Below are positions 9,027-32,013 of a stretch of 32,013 bases of DNA, one piece after another (position 1 is the stretch's first letter; every line of letters starts with the position of its first letter). A program made the translations under genes and the position numbers. The notes under the pieces are model-generated. The model was given only the letters and a program-made list of their open reading frames with translations, had not been told where the DNA came from and did not search any database. The stretch is from Deltaproteobacteria bacterium. GTDB lineage: Bacteria > Myxococcota_A > Polyangia > Polyangiales > Houyiibacteriaceae. The DNA is taken from positions 1-32,013 of the forward strand of contig JAADHO010000300.1 in the NCBI GenBank assembly GCA_013151775.1. Reading direction: 5' to 3'.

Positions 9027-9031
9027 GAGAG

Positions 9032-9051
9032 AGCCCTTCGGACTCCGGGCT
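9032..9051. terminator. Candidate hairpin between convergent genes
   Basis: AGCCC (9032-9036) pairs with GGGCT (9047-9051) around a 10-nt loop, exactly between the stop of the plus-strand gene and that of the Rieske gene. The stem is short and there is no T-tract, so this is a weak bidirectional terminator candidate. Confidence 0.3.
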
Positions 9052-9625
9052 ACGCCGTGTGGATCATCAACTGCGTGCCGTCGAACTCCCAGGAATACTG
9101 CCGCAGCCCGGTGAGCGCGGGGCCCCGGCGCAGGCTGCCGTCGAGTCCGAAGAGCGAGCCGTGGCAGTAGCAGGGCAGGTCGTGGGTGGAGGCACGGTAG
9201 TCCACGTCGCAGCGCGCGTGGGGGCAGATGGAGGAGACGACGGCGAAGGCGTCGGCGCCGGCGTCCGCGGTGCGCACGATCATCAGGCGATCGAAGCCCG
9301 CGTCCACGATGCCCCAGCCGTCGACGGCCTGAAGCACGGCGTTACCCGGATCGCTGATGTCGAGGCAGACGTCCGTGTCCGCGCAGGCCGAGCCCGCGTC
9401 CATCACGGGTGAGTCGCCGTCTGGCGCGGCGTCCACCGGGCCGAGCCCCGCGTCCCCACTTCGGGTCCCGGAGCTCTGACAGCCCACGAGCGCTCCCATG
9501 GAGCTCACGCTGAGCACACCGAGACCGAGCCCCTGCATGGCGCGTCGACGCGAGCAAGCAGGAGCCTGCTCTTCGGAGTTCAATGTATCGAGATGGACAT
9601 GGTCCTCGCTCTTTGTAGTCGTCAT
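9050..9625 (-). CDS. Tat-exported Rieske [2Fe-2S] lipoprotein
   Basis: 191 residues. Carries a Rieske iron-sulfur cluster: Cys134 and His136 in CPHARC plus Cys152 and His155 in CYCHGS are the expected ligands, and Cys139 and Cys154 the expected disulfide pair. The 15-residue spacing between the two boxes is canonical. The N-terminus has a twin-arginine signal (SRRRAMQGLGLG, Arg26-28), as expected for a protein folded with its cluster before export, and a lipobox-like GALVGC (Cys49) followed by a Gly/Asp/Ala linker. It is therefore probably a lipid-anchored periplasmic electron carrier. The ATG at 9625 was chosen for an ACAGG nearby; in-frame ATG 9631 and TTG 9652 are alternatives. It is divergent from two dihaem lipoproteins, suggesting a shared electron-transfer role; no cytochrome b gene is adjacent. 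Confidence 0.92.
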   Translation of the reverse strand: MTTTKSEDHVHLDTLNSEEQAPACSRRRAMQGLGLGVLSVSSMGALVGCQSSGTRSGDAGLGPVDAAPDGDSPVMDAGSACADTDVCLDISDPGNAVLQAVDGWGIVDAGFDRLMIVRTADAGADAFAVVSSICPHARCDVDYRASTHDLPCYCHGSLFGLDGSLRRGPALTGLRQYSWEFDGTQLMIHTA

Positions 9626-9929
9626 AATCATATACCTGTTCGTTGGTTGCAAAACCCCCGGCAGATCCCATCCCGTCGAACGAACACCCGTGAGGGTGAT
9701 CTATTCCCCGACGGATTGAGCCTCGAAATGATTGTCGTCAAGCGAATTCCGGCCGACCATCGAATGAAATCTCGTCGACGCACAGCACCACGCTGACGTT
9801 ACCAAGACGGGCCATGTCCGCCCTGCGTACAGCTGTACGCTCGAGGGACATGCCGTTTGATTGGCGTCTCCGAAAGCGCCCCCACCAGGGAACGCTGACG
9901 TTGGCACAGAGAATGCTCAGCACGCGGTC
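9626..9929. promoter_or_regulatory. Divergent control region, Rieske / dihaem genes
   Basis: 304 bp between the Rieske start (minus) and the first dihaem lipoprotein start (plus), richer in A/T than the genes on either side. It contains the 16-bp palindrome at 9825-9840 and a smaller inverted repeat, CACCC-GTGA-GGGTG, at 9685-9698 on the Rieske side. A TTGACG on the minus strand (around 9735) could be a -35 box, but a good -10 is not evident. No gene was found here. Confidence 0.45.
9825..9840. promoter_or_regulatory. 16-bp perfect palindrome, likely operator
   Basis: GCGTACAGCTGTACGC is identical to its reverse complement over all 16 bases. It lies 90 bp before the first dihaem gene and 200 bp before the Rieske gene. 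A homodimeric repressor or activator is the simplest reader; which one is unknown. Confidence 0.5.
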
Positions 9930-10559
9930 ATGCGCAACAACGCAAGCACCCTTCTCGTCCTCATTGGGCTCTGTATTTCGTCGAGCGCCTGCGGTGGAAC
10001 AGGCACGAGGGTCGGTCCTGACGCAGGGTCGAGCGTGACGGACTCCGGCACGACCGACTCCGGCACGACGCTCGCACCTCCGGACTCGGGGACGAGCACA
10101 GGACCGGGCGGCTCGTTGCCCGACGGATCGGGAGACTGCGTAGGAGACCCCGTGTCCCTGCTAGGGGTCTCCCTGGACCGCTGGAGCTACGGCAACCTGG
10201 GCACTGCCTACATGCGTCCTGGAGGCGATTGCATGGACTGTCACGCACGCAACGGCGGACCGCGCTTCACGGTGGCGGGCAGCGTGATGGACGCCTGGCA
10301 CGAGCCGGACGACTGCTTCGGCATGCAAGGCGTCACGGTGGAGATCACGGGCGCCGATGGCGTCGTGACGCGCATGACGACCAACGAGACGGGCAACTTC
10401 TACAGCTCCGACTCCATCGCCGTGCCCTACAAGGCGAAGCTCACAGGCGCGGACGGCTCCGTGCGCGAGATGCTCGCTCCGCAGACGGACCTCGACTGCA
10501 TGAGCTGCCACACCCAAGGGGGCGCGAATGGTGCTCCTGGCCGAATCGGTCACCCGTGA
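9930..10559 (+). CDS. Dihaem c-type lipoprotein with inserted beta domain (copy 1)
   Basis: 209 residues, exported by a lipoprotein signal (lipobox SSAC, Cys21); the start at 9930 was chosen because it places this signal at the N-terminus. A Ser/Thr/Gly/Asp linker (22-70) follows. Two c-type haem motifs are present: CMDCH (101-105) and CMSCH (190-194). Between them, about 115-182 reads as a small beta-sandwich (VTVEITGADG, MTTNETGNFY, PYKAKLTGADGSVRE), resembling carboxypeptidase regulatory-like/Cna-B folds. The haems thus bracket a beta domain rather than sitting in a compact cytochrome. A probable extracytoplasmic electron carrier; partner unknown. It shares over half its residues with the next gene from the first haem motif onward. 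Confidence 0.9.
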   Translation: MRNNASTLLVLIGLCISSSACGGTGTRVGPDAGSSVTDSGTTDSGTTLAPPDSGTSTGPGGSLPDGSGDCVGDPVSLLGVSLDRWSYGNLGTAYMRPGGDCMDCHARNGGPRFTVAGSVMDAWHEPDDCFGMQGVTVEITGADGVVTRMTTNETGNFYSSDSIAVPYKAKLTGADGSVREMLAPQTDLDCMSCHTQGGANGAPGRIGHP

Positions 10560-10588
10560 ATAGATCACCAAGATGGAAAGGTCGAACG

Positions 10589-11155
10589 ATGACGAATCTC
10601 TGTACAGCTACTGGTTTTCTCACCGGCGCGCTGCTGCTCGCGGCGTGCAGCGGGGGTGGTCCTGGCGTCGCGGGCCCTGCGCTCAACACGGACGCGGGTG
10701 AATTCGGTGACGCGGGCGCTACGTCCGCGACGCCAACGCCGGACGAGTTCGGTTGCTACGGCACGGGCTCACGCTGGACCCGGGGCAACCGCGAGTCGCC
10801 CTTCATGCATCCTGGGGGCGACTGCATCGACTGCCACGAGGCCATGCGCGAAGGCCCGCGCTACGCCTCCGCGGGCTCGGTGAATAACTACTGGGACGAG
10901 CGCCTCGACTGCGCGGGCACCGCGGGCATCACGGTCGAGCTGACGGGAGCCGACGGAACCGTAGTCACCGCGACCACCAACGGCGCCGGCAACTTCTGGT
11001 TCCGCAGCACCGTGATGACACCCTACACGGCGCGCTTGATCGGTCCGGACGGATCCGTGCGCCAGATGTTCACGCCCCAGACCGACCTCGACTGCATGCA
11101 TTGCCACACGGAGATGGGCGTCAACGGAGCGCCCGGGCGGATCGTCGCGCCCTGA
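10589..11155 (+). CDS. Dihaem c-type lipoprotein with inserted beta domain (copy 2)
   Basis: 188 residues, starting at the ATG at 10589 with AAAGG about 7 bp upstream. Lipobox LLAAC (Cys20) and a short Asp/Ala/Gly/Thr linker. Haem motifs are CIDCH (79-83) and CMHCH (169-173), flanking a beta-type domain (VTVELTGADGT by homology to copy 1, here ITVELTGADG; GNFWFRS; PYTARLIGPDGSVRQ). Both copies share PGGDC.DCH, PQTDLDCM.CHT and a terminal NGAPGRI; I count about 67 identities in about 116 aligned positions, so a tandem duplication is clear. It is 29 bp downstream of copy 1 and surely cotranscribed. Probable periplasmic or surface electron carrier, perhaps exchanging electrons with copy 1 and the Rieske protein. 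Confidence 0.9.
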   Translation: MTNLCTATGFLTGALLLAACSGGGPGVAGPALNTDAGEFGDAGATSATPTPDEFGCYGTGSRWTRGNRESPFMHPGGDCIDCHEAMREGPRYASAGSVNNYWDERLDCAGTAGITVELTGADGTVVTATTNGAGNFWFRSTVMTPYTARLIGPDGSVRQMFTPQTDLDCMHCHTEMGVNGAPGRIVAP

Positions 11156-11247
11156 CCTCGAGCGCTGAGCCAAGGACGGCCTCGCCCGCGAGCGCGCGGA
11201 AAACATCGGATCGAATTCGCGCGCGGATGTACTAGAGTCCGCCTCCC

Positions 11248-15622: not shown

Positions 15623-17689
15623 ATGAGCAAGGGGCAGGGTCGAGCCAGACGCTTCGCGGACGCGGCGCTCGCGGCGTTGGTGCTGCTGATCGTGGCCATG
15701 ATGATCGTGCCCCTGCCCACGGGGCTGCTCGACATCCTGATCGCGAGCAACATCTCGCTCGCGGTTTTGATGCTGCTGACGGCCATCTACATCTCGGGCG
15801 GGCTCTCCTTCACCGCCTTCCCCACCGTGCTGCTCATCACCACGCTCTATCGGCTGGCTCTGAACGTCTCCTCCACGCGCTTGATCCTGCTGCAGGCGGA
15901 CGCGGGAAACGTGATCTACGCCTTCGGCAACTTCGTCGTGCGAGGCAACTACGTGGTCGGCGGCGTGGTCTTCCTGATCCTGACGCTGATCCAATTCCTC
16001 GTGATCGCCAAGGGCTCAGAGCGAGTCGCCGAGGTGGGCGCACGCTTCACCCTCGACGCCATGCCCGGCAAGCAGATGAGCATCGACGCCGAGCTCAGAG
16101 CGGGCTCCTTCAGTCAGGAGGAGGCGCGAAAGAAGCGCTCGGATCTCCAGCGGGAGAGCCAGTTCTATGGCGCCATGGACGGCGCCATGAAGTTCGTGAA
16201 GGGCGACGCCATCGCGGGCATCGTGATCACCATCGTGAACATCCTGGGCGGGCTCGCCATCGGCGTCGGTCAGCGCGGCATGAGCGCCCTCGACGCGCTT
16301 CAGACCTACGGCCTGTTGACCATCGGCGACGGCCTCGTGTCGCAGATTCCCTCCCTGCTGATCTCCACCGCCGCCGGCCTGGTGGTCACGCGCGTCGCCT
16401 CGGAAGACGAGAACGGCTCTCTGGGCGGAGACGTGGCCAAGCAGATCTTCGGCGACCGACGCTCTCTGGCCATCGCAGCGGTCTTCTTGCTCGCCTTGGC
16501 CGTGGTGCCGGGGCTGCCCGCCTTGCCCTTCTTGGTGCTCTCGACGACCTTCGGCGTGCTCGCCTATCGACTCGGAGGCGAGAAGCAGACCGCGGAGACC
16601 GCCGTGGCGGTGGTGGCCAAGCAGGAGGCGGCGAGGGAGACCCAAGCGCGCAAGGCCATGGTGCCGCTGATGGTCCCCGTGGCCCTCGACCTCGGCGACG
16701 ACCTGGCGGACGCGATGCTCGATGACGCGGGAGGCGGGACCCTGCTCGAGGACGAGATCCCGCGCCTGCGCGACCGCCTCTTCCTGGATCTGGGCGTGGC
16801 CCTGCCGGGCGTGCGCGCGCGACGCAGCCCGGAGCTCGGGCCCGAAGAGTACGTGCTCACGCTCAAGGAGGTGCCCGTCGGTCAGGGCGAGGCGCGGGCC
16901 CAACGATTGCTCGCCTTGGCCACACCGAGCGAGATCGAGAGCCTCGGCCTGGAGGCGGAGCCTGCTGAAGATCCCGAGACCCTGGCGCCCGCCGCCTGGG
17001 TGCAGATGGAGGTGGCTGAGGAACTCGAGGCCGCGGGCATCCCGACCCTGAATGCCGCCGCCGTGGTCACACAGCACCTCGGGCGCATGGTCGAGCGGCG
17101 CGCCCACGAGTTCGTGGGACTGCAGGAGGTGCAGTCCATGCTCGACCAGCTCGAGCGCGCCTACCCGGCCCTGGTGCGCAACGTGGTGCCCAAACCTGTG
17201 GCGCTGCCTCTGCTCACGGACGTACTGCGCCGGCTGGCCGAGGAGGGCGTGAGCATCCGGCCCCTGCGCGAGATCCTCGAGGCTCTGGCCACCTACGCGC
17301 CGGGCGAGCGCGACCCCATCGCCCTCACGGAGCTGGTGCGCGCATCCCTGAAGCGCCAGGTGACCTACCGCTACGCCCGCGACGGCGTGCTACCCGTGTA
17401 CCTGCTCGACCCCGCCATCGAAGAGGCCATCCGCGACTCGATCCAGCGGACCGCCACGGGCAGCTACATCGCCATGCCACCAGACATGGCGCGCGACGTC
17501 GTGGAGGCCGTGAGGCGCGAGACGGGTGAGGGCGGTGAGGGCGAGACCGTGTGCCTGCTGACCCAAGCGGACGTGCGTCGCTTCACTCGACGCCTGCTCG
17601 AGGTGGAGCTGCCAGGCCTGGTCGTGCTGAGCTACCAAGAGCTGGCTCCCGAGGTGACGGTGCAACCCCTGGCGCGCATCTCCCTATGA
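15623..17689 (+). CDS. sctV: Type III secretion export gate protein SctV (FlhA/LcrD family)
   Basis: Inner-membrane export gate of a type III secretion machine; 688 residues, the normal length. The N-terminal half (to about 310) has around eight membrane helices and the family signatures FPTVLLITTLYRLALNVSS (66-84) and KGSERVAEVGARFTLDAMPG (130-149) followed by KQMSID. The wording SERVAEV plus MSID favours the non-flagellar SctV/LcrD branch over FlhA (usually GRIAEV and MAID). The C-terminal cytosolic domain (about 345-688) has the expected ring-forming architecture. No other secretion gene (sctR, S, T, U, N, J or C) is in the window. ATG with AGAGG/GGAG just upstream. Ortholog class is confident; whether it works in a full injectisome is unknown. 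Confidence 0.94.
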   Translation: MSKGQGRARRFADAALAALVLLIVAMMIVPLPTGLLDILIASNISLAVLMLLTAIYISGGLSFTAFPTVLLITTLYRLALNVSSTRLILLQADAGNVIYAFGNFVVRGNYVVGGVVFLILTLIQFLVIAKGSERVAEVGARFTLDAMPGKQMSIDAELRAGSFSQEEARKKRSDLQRESQFYGAMDGAMKFVKGDAIAGIVITIVNILGGLAIGVGQRGMSALDALQTYGLLTIGDGLVSQIPSLLISTAAGLVVTRVASEDENGSLGGDVAKQIFGDRRSLAIAAVFLLALAVVPGLPALPFLVLSTTFGVLAYRLGGEKQTAETAVAVVAKQEAARETQARKAMVPLMVPVALDLGDDLADAMLDDAGGGTLLEDEIPRLRDRLFLDLGVALPGVRARRSPELGPEEYVLTLKEVPVGQGEARAQRLLALATPSEIESLGLEAEPAEDPETLAPAAWVQMEVAEELEAAGIPTLNAAAVVTQHLGRMVERRAHEFVGLQEVQSMLDQLERAYPALVRNVVPKPVALPLLTDVLRRLAEEGVSIRPLREILEALATYAPGERDPIALTELVRASLKRQVTYRYARDGVLPVYLLDPAIEEAIRDSIQRTATGSYIAMPPDMARDVVEAVRRETGEGGEGETVCLLTQADVRRFTRRLLEVELPGLVVLSYQELAPEVTVQPLARISL

Positions 17690-25748: not shown

Positions 25749-26061
25749 ACAGGCTCCTCGGGTGACTCGTCCGTGGTCGACCGTCGCGACCGGCGGCCGA
25801 GCCTACCCGCACACGAATGCGGGCGCCACGGGACTGCGCCTGAGCCGCGCCTGAGCCGTTGAGGCGAAGCACGAGAGTATCCATCGGACGGGAGGGACAA
25901 CATGATTTACGCAAAGCTAATCACTGGAAGCTCGTATATATGACAATGTAATCGCTTTCCAGAAGAGACGGTCCGCGAAAAATCCTTTCACCCAATAATA
26001 ATCCGTTCACAGCGCCCACAAAAATCAGCGGACGGTGTATACTTGCGGGGCGGAGGATCGG
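25749..26061. promoter_or_regulatory. Divergent AT-rich control region before the giant surface gene
   Basis: 313 bp between the permease start (minus) and the giant gene start (plus). Bases about 25900-26045 are far richer in A/T than the rest of the window. A stem of CTGGAAGC (25924-25931) and GCTTTCCAG (25954-25962), with a bulged T, surrounds the AT-rich loop TATATATGACAATG. TATACT at 26038-26043 is a plausible -10 for the plus strand, 18 bp before the start codon; a good -35 at the right distance is not seen. No gene was found. Confidence 0.4.
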
Positions 26062-29000
26062 ATGGGCAGATCGAATCGGGCGATGTTTGTGCTCGCATGT
26101 CTGGGTGTGGGCGTGTTGGCGTCGCAGGTACGCGCGGACAATGTCGGGCAGGTACAGACGGCGAAGCGCATCGCGCGCTCCACGCTGGCGGTGATCGATC
26201 CGGAGACGGGCACCTCCACCGGCACGGCGGGCAGCGGCGTGCGTGTCGCGGTCGGCGACATCCTCACTTTCACCTTCCAGTTCACGCCCATCCCGAACGG
26301 CGCTCCGCGTGGCCTCGGCGGCTACATCACGGAGTACGTGCCGCCCAACACCGTAGTGGTCGGCGCCCGCATCATCGATCGCGACGGCAACACCGTCCCG
26401 CCCCATCGCGGCGGTCTGGGACCCAATGGCTGGGGCCTGCGCGGGAGCAACGCGGACTACACCGCCCTTGGGCTGCAGCAGGGCAGCATCTCGCAGCTCT
26501 ACGCGGACACGGGCATCTTCTACAGCACGGATCCGCGCACGACGCGTTTCCCCGCGAACCAGCTCATCACGGTCGACAACGGCATCCTCATGGGTGCGCC
26601 CGACACGGAGCAGCCGACGGGCATTCGCAAGCTGCTGACGCTGGTAGGCGCCACCTCGGCCCATGCCCACAACGAGTGGGATTGGATCCAGGCCATGGCC
26701 TTCGGCACGAAGAACAAGAACGGCCTCTTCGGATACCAGATCAGCACCACGGGTGAGGGCAACACGCCCTACCTCTATGGTTCGGCCGTCGCCGGTCCGG
26801 ACACCTTCTATCCCTACGAAGCCACGCGCACCTCGGGCACGGGCCCCAGCGGCACGATCGAGGCGACGACCACCACCGGTCCCTGGAATCGCATCCGCTA
26901 TCTCGGCTCCGAGACGGGCGTGGGCGTGGCCGCCACCTCCTCCGGGAACACCTTGGCCGGAGTGATGCGGGCGGGCGTCCCGGCCACGGCGGGCTGGGAT
27001 CTCAGCACCGCAAATCCTCTGCCCGGAGGCACCAACGCCGTGCGCTACGCGGTGGGTGAGCTGGTGGTGGGCGATGAGTATTTCGCGGAGATCTCCCTGC
27101 GCGTACTCGGTCTACCGCTCGACCCGGTCATGGGCGACAACTCGAACTGCTCCGAGGTCTTCGGCGGCGACGCCAGCTCCATGGGCATCGACAAGGGCGG
27201 CAAGGACAACGCCTGGCGTTACTTCATCCCATCGCCTGCCTGCGTCGCGCTCGACCTCTTCTTCGAGCTGAATGTCGACAAGATCATCGCCCTGCCCGGC
27301 CAGCTGCTCACCTACACCATCGAGGGCCGCAACCTCTCGACCTCGCCGCAGACCAACGTGGTCGTGACCGACGTCTTCGACCCAGGCCAGGTCACCTTCG
27401 TGAGCGCGACCGGCGGCGCCGTGCTCACGGGCGGCAACACCCTCACCTGGCCCACGTTAGCGTCATGGGCTCCGAGCGGCACCTTCACGCAGACGGTGAC
27501 CGTGCGCGTGCAGGGAGGCGCGACGGGCTCGACGCTGAACCGCGCGACCTACGTCTCCGACCAGCGGCCAGCGCCCGGCTTCTCCACCGTGGCGCTCACC
27601 GATCTCGGCGCGCGTGCCCTCATGCGCCTCGGCCTCACGCCGACCCCCAGCACCGTGTCCGCGGGCGGCGTCTATCACCTCGACGGCACCATCCGAAACG
27701 ACGGCAACGGCGTGGCCAGCGTCACGGGCTGTCGCGGCCTCAGCTGCCAGATCGTGATCGACCTGCCGGGCGGCTTCACCATCGTGCCCGGCACCAGCAC
27801 CATCAACGGCGCGGGCGTCCCTGACCCTGCGCTCACCGGCGCACGCTATCGCTACAGCTCGGGCCTCTCGGACATCCTGCCCGCTACGCCCCCCGCCACG
27901 CCGACGCCCCTGACCATCGGCTTCGACGTGCGCGTGCCGGCGGGCACCACCACGGGCCTCTACTCCTCCTGCATGGAGAGCTGGCTGGACGACCCGGGCT
28001 TCGGCAAGACGGTCAACGACTCCGTGTGCTCCGTGGGAACGGTCGCCGTGGGCGCGCCGCGCTCCCTGGCGCCCATCCTCGACGCTCCCATCTCGAGCAC
28101 GGCGAGCTGCATCAGCGGCAGCACCTCCGAGCCCGACGGCACCAGCGTGCACGTCTACCTCAACGGCATCGACCGCGGCACGGCCACGGCGACGGGTGGG
28201 CGCTTCACCGTCTGCGGCTTCCCGCCCCTCTACGGCGGTCAAGAGGTCACGGCGACGGCGCAAGCTCCCGGAGAGCTCATCAGCACGCCCTCCACCCCCG
28301 TCTTCGTCCAGACCATGGCGGTCTGCTCCGACGGCATCGACAACGACGGCGACGGGCAGGTGGACTTCCCCGCCGACCTCGGCTGCTCCAGCCCGTCGGA
28401 CTCGGACGAGACCAACCCGGAGTGCAGCGACGGCGTCGACAACGACGGCGACGGGGACATCGACTGGCCCGCCGACCTCGAGTGCAGCTCCCCCTACGAC
28501 ACGACCGAGGCGGGACCTCCCGCCTGCAACGACAGCGTCGACAACGACGGCGACGGCCTCGTCGACTTCCCGGCGGATCCCGGCTGCAGCTCGCTGACGG
28601 ATCGCAGCGAGGTGCAGTACCGCGCCTGCAACGACGGCGCCGACAACGACGGTGACGGCCTCGTCGACTTCCCGGCGGACCCGGGCTGCCACTCTCTCAA
28701 CGACAACGACGAGGCGGACGTCGCCGCCAGCGTGGCGGACATCTACGCCCGCATGCTCTTCGTCTTCGACACCTCGGGTTCCATGAACTGGAACACCTGC
28801 ACCAACACCTTCACGGGGGGAGACGGCTCGAGCGAGTGTGCAGGAGCTGACGTCAGCTGCGCCGCCTGTGGCGCCAGCGCCTGCGGCAACGGCGCCGCGG
28901 ACGACAGCCGCATCGCCCGCGCCAAGGCCGGCCTCTCGGACGTGGTCGCCGCCTATGGCAACCTCGAGTACGGGCTGATGCGCTTTCACCAGCAGGCCGT

Positions 29001-32000
29001 CCCCTTCTCGTGTCCGAGCACCAACGCGAGCCAGGGCTCCGGTGGCTGGCAGGGCGCGGGAGCGACGCCCTGTGGCGGCGGATTCAGCAGCGGAGATCTC
29101 TTGGTCGGCTTCAGCCAAGACAACCAACTCGACCTGCTCGAGTGGATGGACGGCCAGGACAACTACGCCGGAACGCCCGCGCCCCCCGGCCTCGACATCG
29201 AGCTGCGCGGCACGGGCACGACCCCCCTCGCAGGCAGCCTCACCTCGGCCCGCGACGTGCTCGTCGGGACCGCCAGCGGCGACCCCGCGGCGAGCTGCCG
29301 GCCCTACGTCGTCGTGCTGATCACAGACGGCGTGGAGACCTGCGCCGGCGACCCCGTGAGCGCCGCGAGCGCCCTCCGCTTCGCCGGCTTCCCGACCTAC
29401 GTCATCGGCTTCGCGGTGGCGGATCCCGCCGCCGTCGCCAACCTGAACGCCATCGCGGGCGCAGGCGGCACGGGGACGGCCACCTTCGTCACGGACTCGA
29501 CGGCGATGTCGGCGGCGATCTCCCAGATCGTCGGCGCCACCGTGTTGGTCGAGAGCTGCAACGGGCTCGACGACAACTGCAACGGGCTCGTCGACGAGGG
29601 CTTCCCGCTCTTCTGCGACAGGCCCGCCGGACACCCCGCCCAAGACCTCTGCGCCGATCCCGGCGAGAGCGTCTGCGATGGCGTCGACGACAACTGCAAC
29701 GGGCTCGTCGACGAGGGCCTGCTCAACGCCTGCGGCGCGTGTGGCCCGGCGCCCGTCGAGGTCTGCAATGGCGTGGACGACAACTGCGACGGCGTGATCG
29801 ACGAAGGCGGAGTGTGCGCGGGCTGCGTGCCCTCCGCCGAGATCTGCGACGGCATCGACAACAACTGCAACGGCGCCATCGACGAGGGCTTGTCCCGCGC
29901 CTGCGGCACGAGCGTGGGAGCCTGCACGACGGGCCTGCAAGCGTGCAGCGCGGGCGCTTGGGGCGCCTGCTCGGGCACGGGACCCACGGCGGAGATCTGT
30001 GACGGCATCGACAACGACTGCGACGGAGTCGTGGACGGCATGAGTCGGAGCTGTGGAAGCGCCACGGGGGCCTGCGCGCCCGGAGCGCAGCGCTGCGCCG
30101 CGGGAAGCTGGGGCACCTGCGTGGGTTCGCTCGGGCCGAGCGCGGAGATCTGCGACGGAATCGACAACAACTGCAACGGCGCGACCGACGAGGGCAACCC
30201 CGGCGGCGGCGGGAGCTGCGGCGGCAGCACGGGAGCCTGCTCCCCGGGCACCCTCGCCTGCATGGCGGGCGCGCTGACCTGCATCGGCGGCGTGAGCCCC
30301 TCAGCCGAGGTCTGTGACGGCATCGACAACAACTGCAACGGAATCGTCGACGATGGCGTGCCGACAGCCGGCGCCTGCGGCAGCACGACGGGAGCTTGCC
30401 GCACGGGTGTGCGCACCTGCACCGGGGGCAGCTTCGTCTGCACGGGAGCGGCCGGACCGAGCGCGGAGATCTGCGACGGAATCGACAACGACTGCAACGG
30501 CGCGACCGACGAGGGCAACCCCGGGGGAGGCGCGGCCTGCGGCACGAGCACCGGCTCCTGCTCCCTCGGCACGACGCAGTGCACGGGCGGCAGCTTGGTC
30601 TGCACCGGTGGCACGGCGCCCGCGCCAGAGATCTGCGACGGAATCGACAACGACTGCAATGGGCTCGTCGACGATGGCGATCCCGGCGGCGGAGGCAGCT
30701 GCGGCGCGCCCGCGGTGGGCGCCTGCGCACCGGGCGTCGAACACTGCACCGGAGGCAGCTTGACCTGCGTCGGCGGGACGGGACCGACGGCGGAGAGCTG
30801 CGACGGAATCGACAACAACTGCGACGGCGCCGTCGATGAAGGCAACCCGGGCGGCGGGGCCGCGTGCGGCGACTCCACCGGCGCCTGCATGCCCGGCGTC
30901 GTTCAGTGCGTCACGGGAGCGCTCTCATGCGCCGGCGGCGTCGGACCGACGGCCGAGGTCTGCGACGGAATCGACAACGACTGCGATGGAGTCGTGGACG
31001 ATGGGCTCCCGGTCGGCGCGCCCTGTGGCAGCGACGTCGGAGAGTGCGTGCCCGGCTTCAACGTCTGCCGCGCTGGCGCGGTCGTCTGCGAGGGCGGCGT
31101 CGGGCCGACGGCGGAGAGCTGCGACGGACTCGACAACGACTGCAACGGCGTGGTGGATGACGGCGTCCCCGCGGGCGGCGTCTGCGGCACCACCGACGGG
31201 GTCTGCACCCCGGGCATGCTCGCCTGTGTCGGCGGACGCGAGGTCTGCTCCGGGGCCGTGCCCGCGGGCCCCGAGGTCTGTGACTGCGCCGACAACGACT
31301 GCGACGGCAGGGTCGATGAGCCGCCCGCCGGAGGCAGCCTCTGCGGCCCCGACGCCTCCTGCGTCGATTGCCAATGCGCCCTGCCCTGCGCCATGAGCGA
31401 GTTCGGCGTCGCCTGCCCCTTGGGTCGCTCGCCGCAGACGGTCGACGGAACCTGCTTCTGCCTCGCCACCGCCTGCGACGCCGCGGCCTGCGCGGAAGAG
31501 ACGCATAGCGACACCATGGGCGCGACGGTCTGCGCGCCTGACACGAGCGGACTCTCGGTCTGCGTGTGCAAGGACAACGCCTGCACCTTCCCCTGCGACG
31601 GCGTGAGCTGCCCCGCGGGAACCATCTGCGACTCGAGCGATCCCGCGGGGCGCTGCGTGAGTGACGACTGCCGAGGTCTGGGCTGCCCGAGCGGTCAGCT
31701 CTGCGACCCCGTGGCGATCGCCTGCGTGGACGACGCCTGCGCGGGCGTGACCTGCGCTCCGGACGAGGCGTGTCGCGCCGGAGCCTGCGAGCCGAGCTGC
31801 GCCACGACCTCCTGCACGACGCCCGAGCGTTGCGTCCACGGCGTCTGCACCACGGACGCCTGCGATGGCGTGAGCTGCCCGGCGGGCCAGGCCTGCGACA
31901 CGACGGGCGCCTGCGTGGACGACGTCTGCGCCGCCCTCAGCTGTCCGGCGGACACCACCTGTTCGCTCGAGGTGGGCAGCTGCGTTCCTGGGCCCTGCTT

Positions 32001-32013
32001 CGACCTGCGCTGC
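26062..32013 (+). CDS. Giant exported VWA/MopE-repeat protein, 3' end outside the window
   Basis: At least 1984 residues, open at the window end; one frame throughout. ATG with GGAGG five bases upstream. The Sec signal peptide ends near VRA (about residue 25). In order: a globular N-terminal part (30-390); a DUF11-like beta domain (about 403-480, LPGQLLTYTIEGRNLS); two more beta-type regions; four acidic DNDGDG repeats (755-884), expected to bind calcium; a von Willebrand A domain with MIDAS residues D903-x-S905-x-S907 (VFDTSGS) and D1089 in ITDG; thirteen CDGIDNDCNG-VDEG motifs (1166-1753) of the MopE type, each with two Cys; and a Cys-rich tail with units such as CDGVSCPAGTICD. This is a calcium- and metal-rich secreted or surface protein, perhaps adhesive. 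Function is inferred from domains only. Confidence 0.9.
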   Translation, partial: MGRSNRAMFVLACLGVGVLASQVRADNVGQVQTAKRIARSTLAVIDPETGTSTGTAGSGVRVAVGDILTFTFQFTPIPNGAPRGLGGYITEYVPPNTVVVGARIIDRDGNTVPPHRGGLGPNGWGLRGSNADYTALGLQQGSISQLYADTGIFYSTDPRTTRFPANQLITVDNGILMGAPDTEQPTGIRKLLTLVGATSAHAHNEWDWIQAMAFGTKNKNGLFGYQISTTGEGNTPYLYGSAVAGPDTFYPYEATRTSGTGPSGTIEATTTTGPWNRIRYLGSETGVGVAATSSGNTLAGVMRAGVPATAGWDLSTANPLPGGTNAVRYAVGELVVGDEYFAEISLRVLGLPLDPVMGDNSNCSEVFGGDASSMGIDKGGKDNAWRYFIPSPACVALDLFFELNVDKIIALPGQLLTYTIEGRNLSTSPQTNVVVTDVFDPGQVTFVSATGGAVLTGGNTLTWPTLASWAPSGTFTQTVTVRVQGGATGSTLNRATYVSDQRPAPGFSTVALTDLGARALMRLGLTPTPSTVSAGGVYHLDGTIRNDGNGVASVTGCRGLSCQIVIDLPGGFTIVPGTSTINGAGVPDPALTGARYRYSSGLSDILPATPPATPTPLTIGFDVRVPAGTTTGLYSSCMESWLDDPGFGKTVNDSVCSVGTVAVGAPRSLAPILDAPISSTASCISGSTSEPDGTSVHVYLNGIDRGTATATGGRFTVCGFPPLYGGQEVTATAQAPGELISTPSTPVFVQTMAVCSDGIDNDGDGQVDFPADLGCSSPSDSDETNPECSDGVDNDGDGDIDWPADLECSSPYDTTEAGPPACNDSVDNDGDGLVDFPADPGCSSLTDRSEVQYRACNDGADNDGDGLVDFPADPGCHSLNDNDEADVAASVADIYARMLFVFDTSGSMNWNTCTNTFTGGDGSSECAGADVSCAACGASACGNGAADDSRIARAKAGLSDVVAAYGNLEYGLMRFHQQAVPFSCPSTNASQGSGGWQGAGATPCGGGFSSGDLLVGFSQDNQLDLLEWMDGQDNYAGTPAPPGLDIELRGTGTTPLAGSLTSARDVLVGTASGDPAASCRPYVVVLITDGVETCAGDPVSAASALRFAGFPTYVIGFAVADPAAVANLNAIAGAGGTGTATFVTDSTAMSAAISQIVGATVLVESCNGLDDNCNGLVDEGFPLFCDRPAGHPAQDLCADPGESVCDGVDDNCNGLVDEGLLNACGACGPAPVEVCNGVDDNCDGVIDEGGVCAGCVPSAEICDGIDNNCNGAIDEGLSRACGTSVGACTTGLQACSAGAWGACSGTGPTAEICDGIDNDCDGVVDGMSRSCGSATGACAPGAQRCAAGSWGTCVGSLGPSAEICDGIDNNCNGATDEGNPGGGGSCGGSTGACSPGTLACMAGALTCIGGVSPSAEVCDGIDNNCNGIVDDGVPTAGACGSTTGACRTGVRTCTGGSFVCTGAAGPSAEICDGIDNDCNGATDEGNPGGGAACGTSTGSCSLGTTQCTGGSLVCTGGTAPAPEICDGIDNDCNGLVDDGDPGGGGSCGAPAVGACAPGVEHCTGGSLTCVGGTGPTAESCDGIDNNCDGAVDEGNPGGGAACGDSTGACMPGVVQCVTGALSCAGGVGPTAEVCDGIDNDCDGVVDDGLPVGAPCGSDVGECVPGFNVCRAGAVVCEGGVGPTAESCDGLDNDCNGVVDDGVPAGGVCGTTDGVCTPGMLACVGGREVCSGAVPAGPEVCDCADNDCDGRVDEPPAGGSLCGPDASCVDCQCALPCAMSEFGVACPLGRSPQTVDGTCFCLATACDAAACAEETHSDTMGATVCAPDTSGLSVCVCKDNACTFPCDGVSCPAGTICDSSDPAGRCVSDDCRGLGCPSGQLCDPVAIACVDDACAGVTCAPDEACRAGACEPSCATTSCTTPERCVHGVCTTDACDGVSCPAGQACDTTGACVDDVCAALSCPADTTCSLEVGSCVPGPCFDLRC
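28324..28713 (+). repeat. Four DNDGDG acidic repeats
   Basis: Four units of about 32 residues, each with C-x-D-x-x-DNDGDG-x-x-D-FPAD(P/L)GC, then an acidic end. The DxDGDG loop is a thrombospondin type 3 / EF-like calcium site, and the cysteines probably pair between units. They lie directly before the VWA domain. Confidence 0.85.
29557..31320 (+). repeat. Thirteen MopE-type metal-binding motifs
   Basis: Consensus C(D/N)G(I/V)D(N/D)(N/D)C(D/N)G-x-x-D(E/D)G. The first three are closely spaced; from the fourth on they are usually 42-49 residues apart with spacers like CGSSTGAC-PG and CTGGxxxC. The motif is that of the MopE/putative metal-binding family. The thirteenth (CDCADNDCDGRVDE) is the most divergent. 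Nucleotide identity between units is high, consistent with expansion by recombination. Confidence 0.88.

Follow-up and report, generated by a model that had tools for sequence, protein, structure and literature searches.

A Tat-type Rieske lipoprotein gene divergent from two dihaem lipoprotein genes in a Polyangia genome: a possible acquired electron-transfer unit and its wider dihaem family

We analyzed a stretch of 32,013 nucleotides (hereafter, the window) that makes up one whole contig (JAADHO010000300.1) of a 6.05-Mb Polyangia genome (GCA_013151775.1). Within it, a gene on the reverse strand (9050..9625, with its ATG at 9625 and its stop at 9050) encodes a Tat-type Rieske [2Fe-2S] lipoprotein of 191 aa, and a divergent intergenic region of 304 bp (9626..9929) separates this gene from two forward-strand genes for dihaem lipoproteins, which we call A (209 aa; 9930..10559) and B (188 aa; 10589..11155). 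A preliminary description of this DNA had reported a Rieske lipoprotein divergent from two paralogous lipoproteins with two CxxCH sites each, around a shared region, and both its coordinates and its motifs proved correct. It was likewise right that no cytochrome b, oxidase or nitrite reductase genes lie beside the three genes, which are flanked by dctQ-dctM-orf8517 on one side and dnaX-ybaB-recR on the other.

The Rieske protein belongs to Pfam PF00355, scoring 32.8 bits where the cut-off is 20.3, and carries the cluster motif CPHARC...CYCHGS, which contains the ligand pattern C-x-H ... C-x-x-H. Its signal region combines a twin-arginine motif (RRRAMQGLG) with an LVGC lipobox at residues 46-49, both called by motif, not by a signal-peptide predictor. 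The cluster motif retains the two extra cysteines and, after CYCH, the serine of high-potential Rieske proteins, whereas phenylalanine takes the place of the usual Rieske tyrosine. In known Rieske proteins (bc1 literature), such extra cysteines and serine accompany a high potential. The protein resembles the bc1/b6f Rieske subunits (PF00355) in fold, cluster motif, extra disulphide cysteines, CxCHGS serine and Tat export, but differs from them in being anchored through a lipobox, where they have an N-terminal membrane helix, and in lacking a cytochrome b partner gene. An assignment as a bc1 or b6f Rieske subunit was rejected on the absence of a cytochrome b gene from the cluster and on scores far below the respective cut-offs (TIGR01416, 26.8 vs. 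97.4; NF045928, 33.8 vs. 250).

The two dihaem lipoproteins carry their CxxCH sites at residues 101 and 190 (A) and at residues 79 and 169 (B), and their lipoboxes read SSAC and LAAC, with that of A being the weaker. A matches the profile of its family at E 1.6e-53. The two proteins share 57% identity over 127 aa and are placed as sisters (support 100/93) in a 159-member tree of the family, indicating that they arose by local duplication. With conserved CxxCH sites and a Sec lipobox signal, A and B both qualify by sequence as c-type cytochromes whose haem loading is predicted, and genes for cytochrome c maturation are present in the window genome. Several known models were tried for A and B, respectively, and fell short of their gathering cut-offs, including Paired_CXXCH_1 (18.8 and 14.3 vs. 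20.6) and Cytochrome_C7 (15.8 and 16.1 vs. 24.8).

The intergenic region between the divergent genes has a GC content of 0.576, compared with 0.686 for the window, and contains next to A a 40-bp imperfect dyad (9813..9852) as a candidate operator, the core of which (9825-9840; GCGTACAGCTGTACGC) is a perfect 16-bp palindrome. Across the whole genome, this core had no further exact or one-mismatch copy, and matches with two mismatches stood at the level of a backwards control, which lends no support to a regulon that shares the palindrome core. We found no matches to sigma-70 promoters or terminators, and a structured leader RNA did not rise above background (z -1.76).

All three genes lie in a lineage-specific insert (9027..11247) between orf8517 and dnaX. 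The gap between these two genes measures 2,221 bp in the window, compared with 61-286 bp, free of genes, in four relatives from the host family (L236, L238, L239, L257), and it holds exactly the Rieske gene, A and B; in the family relatives, dctM, orf8517 and dnaX adjoin each other. The three genes therefore look acquired, with a gap that is otherwise empty in four relatives, and they were probably gained as one unit, a gain in two steps being also possible. A weak match to the dihaem proteins was found in one other genome of the host family and none in the other family genomes listed, and the GC content of the insert differs little from that of its flanks. In a fifth relative (L254), an unrelated gene, HDOD-like by eye, sits between orf8517 and dnaX, so that genes have entered this site on more than one occasion. 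The empty site in the relatives provides a dated gain and makes a before-vs.-after comparison possible.

We next consider the dihaem proteins beyond the window. In a class-wide search of Polyangia, 121 of 290 genomes, representing 74 of 146 genera, contained homologues, in many cases as several copies. A scan of contigs, run with a closer subset because of the excessive diversity of the class-wide alignment (A2), extended the range of the family to Myxococcaceae, with members in Myxococcus, Pyxidicoccus and Citreicoccus. No Pfam or NCBIfam model matches the family at its cut-off, the nearest sub-threshold models being CarboxypepD_reg, Paired_CXXCH and Cytochrome_C7, and the limited literature searched holds no description of the family, nor of YceI, b561 and Rieske proteins together. 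Its consensus runs C..W..G....S..MxPGxxCxxCH, followed by a beta segment, a conserved Met, the second CxxCH and GAPGRI. The haem motifs are more than chance occurrences: in a profile of 32 relatives, both CxxCH sites are invariant, as are two Met residues, one in MxPGxxCxxCH and the other about nine residues ahead of the second CxxCH, and among 164 members from distinct loci, at least two CxxCH are kept in 159, the MxPG form in 152 and the second Met in 157. Since the CxxCH sites and the two methionines are near-invariant, both haems would be His/Met-ligated, with the methionines as the probable second haem ligands. One or more extra CxxCH (a third or further) occur upstream in 73 of the 159 members of the tree set, such as L106, the one member scanned by profile, whose upstream part matches cytochrome c domains.

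The segment between the haem sites, where the preliminary description had placed a beta insert (115-182 of A), forms six strands in the AlphaFold2 models of both A and B. The model of B (mean pLDDT 83, pTM 0.80; the other four models reached only about 62) places a helix at the first CxxCH, then the six strands, then another, short helix where the second CxxCH lies, and that of A repeats this order of elements but is confident in the beta core only, being weak elsewhere (pLDDT 64); both models were built without haem, and the arms bearing the haem sites are confident in one of the two. In a structure comparison with VIA-align, the best rows included the transthyretin-like domain of carboxypeptidase D at Z 6.7, in a range (Z below 8) where matches are common and may reflect a shared arrangement, and a Foldseek search with the beta segment gave a best E of 0.029. 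The inter-haem segment may resemble the carboxypeptidase regulatory-like, transthyretin-like family PF13620 in predicted fold, although CarboxypepD_reg (PF13620) was rejected by sequence for A and B with scores of 16.4 and 22.5 against a gathering cut-off of 32.3. A sequence search of solved structures with the dihaem profile returned chance-level rows only (influenza haemagglutinin, E 0.02 and above). In its predicted form, the beta segment is not a cytochrome fold, which bears out the suspicion of an unusual layout. Collectively, the dihaem lipoproteins constitute a large unnamed family, and a family trait is the pair of haem sites flanking a beta sandwich, which is possibly transthyretin-like.

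To place the Rieske gene in this wider setting, we read the neighbourhoods of 145 distinct dihaem loci, the window included, using a home-made gene caller based on GC by codon position, so that every count of neighbours is a minimum, with some contigs stopping close to the dihaem gene. A Rieske neighbour was found at 4 of the 145 loci (the window, L092, L093 and L212), leaving 141 without one. The preliminary description had itself named the absence of Rieske neighbours from most genomes as evidence against its proposal, and a conserved Rieske-dihaem module must accordingly be given up. Nevertheless, the three Rieske neighbours outside the window, seen in 144 loci, compare with 0.08-0.5 expected (P from 8e-5 to 0.015, depending on the background rate), and the Rieske-linked loci are scattered in the tree, with well-supported branches forcing at least three changes. 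The Tat-type Rieske lipoproteins at L092, L093 and L212 represent three other families of the class: that at L092 is divergent as in the window, that at L212 lies on the same strand, downstream of the dihaem gene, and at L093, a tight operon on one strand encodes a b561-like protein with four TM segments, a YceI protein, a double-Rieske Tat lipoprotein and a trihaem member of the family. Viewed from the other side, loci of homologues of the Rieske protein have a dihaem neighbour in 2 of 29 cases and none in 27. The pairing is thus real but rare. As to the cooperation that had been proposed between the two kinds of protein, a local, acquired redox unit is still likely, and a working link is plausible given the single lineage-specific gap and the three other families with an adjacent Tat Rieske protein.

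The commonest redox neighbour of the dihaem genes is instead a porin with one haem site, found at 13 of the 145 loci, compared with about 0.12 expected, followed by YceI (10 loci), b561-like proteins (6) and multihaem cytochromes (5). Any such redox neighbour is present at 31 of the 145 loci, with the remaining 114 being solitary or beside unrelated genes. The haem porin is a protein of about 400 aa with a signal peptide, one CxxCH, a barrel-like C-terminal part and weak similarity to Porin_O_P (phosphate-selective porin). The order YceI, haem porin, dihaem protein is kept in two families (L102 and L111), the haem porin and dihaem genes lying a few bases apart. In both (L111:4262-8160 and L102:5220-8959), this operon of YceI, one-haem porin and dihaem protein is accompanied by another dihaem gene alongside, and its gene content suggests a conduit for electrons at the outer membrane of a kind not described before. 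By adjacency, the dihaem family is strongly linked to haem porins; counted by genome, co-occurrence of haem porin and dihaem genes does not exceed the chance level (odds ratio 1.5, P 0.12), adjacency alone being significant. The haem porin is absent from the window genome.

A known protein of comparable design is Cyc2, in which iron oxidisers have a cytochrome fused to a porin. The neighbouring haem porin is similar to Cyc2 in its signal peptide, its one CxxCH, its barrel-like part and an AxPx..R stretch before the CxxCH. Cyc2 is defined by the motif AXPXFAR[Q/K][T/Y] before its single CXXCH (PMC8406198), and an identification of the haem porin as Cyc2 was rejected since all 12 of the 12 sequences with their N-terminus present lack the strict motif while having the single CxxCH.

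Multihaem neighbours take several forms. At L043 (6036-9311, reverse strand), an OmcA/MtrC-like decahaem cytochrome with collagen repeats is divergent from a dihaem family member, and at L045 and L059, a hexahaem gene lies directly downstream of the dihaem gene. Near the dihaem gene of L177 (1279-5988, reverse strand), we also observed an open frame of 1570 aa with 22 CxxCH and matches to Cytochrome_C7 and to Geobacter-type CxxxxCH. The dihaem proteins would share with the MtrCAB/OmcA and Pcc conduits the use of outer-membrane lipoprotein c-type cytochromes, and an OmcA/MtrC-like gene adjoins the L043 member, but they differ in having only two haems with a putatively transthyretin-like domain between them. 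They also lack a partner of the porin or multihaem kind in the window, within which we found no cluster of porin and multihaem cytochrome genes such as marks an Mtr or Pcc conduit.

With a probability of about 0.5, we interpret the locus as a small acquired electron-transfer unit of the envelope, in which an exchangeable relay is wired to a Rieske protein. The Rieske protein would fold with its cluster in the cytoplasm, be exported by Tat and become lipid-anchored, while A and B would be exported by Sec, each have two c-type haems attached covalently by the cytochrome c maturation machinery of the genome, and likewise become lipid-anchored. Single electrons may then be swapped between the Rieske and dihaem proteins, a high-potential Rieske protein and His/Met haems being able to trade them easily, and the dihaem proteins may form a short relay that crosses the periplasm and leads to the outer membrane or to a terminal acceptor, a direction of flow that, like surface exposure, we infer. 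Across the family, the same relay would be coupled to varied partners, namely YceI with the haem porin, b561-like proteins, OmcA/MtrC-type or hexahaem cytochromes, and Tat Rieske proteins. This interpretation is supported by the invariance of CxxCH and Met, the maturation genes, the single gap, and an adjacency to Rieske and haem-porin genes above expectation. It is weakened by the 114 of 145 loci without a redox neighbour, the rarity of Rieske neighbours, the chance-level co-occurrence of haem porin and dihaem genes by genome, and a window genome that has no haem porin and carries its YceI genes elsewhere (contigs C380 and C350, away from the three-gene locus). A broader proposal, which we offer tentatively and regard as somewhat doubtful, is that the dihaem family is an undescribed class of envelope carriers with two c-type haems around a transthyretin-like domain, acting in the periplasm or at the outer membrane as partner of a new haem-porin conduit in Polyangia (the YceI, haem porin and dihaem operons) and re-wirable to other donors, Tat Rieske lipoproteins among them.

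One alternative is a chance meeting at one insertion site, the Rieske gene and the dihaem pair being accessory genes with neither a relation to each other nor a joint function. The 141 dihaem loci without a Rieske gene and the 27 Rieske-homologue loci without a dihaem gene favour such chance neighbourhood, as does an association that reaches only P 0.015 at the conservative background rate; against it stand the single gap absent in relatives, the control region that the divergent genes have in common, and independent recurrence in three other families, including the tight operon of L093 and the same-strand pair of L212. We therefore hold chance neighbourhood to be unlikely, if far from outlandish. 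A different role for the proteins is suggested by the company of YceI (a lipocalin that binds quinones or lipids) and b561-like proteins, whose genes adjoin the dihaem family together at L093 and L125. BcnA (YceI family) and LcoA (cytochrome b561) protect against lipid peroxyl radicals (PMC9113575), and by analogy the dihaem family could, instead of taking part in respiration or the export of electrons, serve redox defence of the envelope together with YceI and b561, returning electrons to lipocalin-bound quinone or removing lipid radicals. The published system, however, has no dihaem lipoprotein or Rieske part, the haem-porin, OmcA/MtrC and hexahaem neighbours suggest electron transfer across the outer membrane instead, and neither gene of the YceI-b561 detoxification system was found in the window; such a defensive role appears improbable to us.

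Least credible, and in our judgement very improbable, is that the two-CxxCH proteins are haem-based sensors, haem-trafficking proteins or dihaem peroxidases rather than electron carriers. Two haem sites with an interposed beta domain of a binding type could bind a ligand, and many loci are solitary or beside kinases and regulators. However, dihaem peroxidase families were absent from the Pfam matches of A and B, even with E values of up to 1 allowed, the invariant Met residues suggest six-coordinate haems of the electron-transfer type, and the frequent extra upstream CxxCH, along with the cytochrome-type domains of L106, also speak for carriers.

Polyangia are known as predators and degraders and are not usually counted among electroactive bacteria. 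If the electron-relay interpretation holds, these bacteria of soil and sediment would possess a large family of envelope cytochromes that has no name as yet and that many genomes encode several times over, the operons with a haem-bearing outer-membrane porin would offer a gene set for testing electron transfer across the outer membrane, and the locus itself would illustrate how a small electron relay is swapped between donors.

Two further genes of the window deserve mention. An FlhA/SctV-type export protein is encoded at 15623-17689 (FHIPEP, E 1e-233), with no other export genes noticed in the window. Finally, a large open frame at 26035-32013, which runs off the contig, shows nine matches to MopE-type copper-binding motifs along with DUF11 and VWA domains, and its product is possibly a metal-binding protein of the cell surface.
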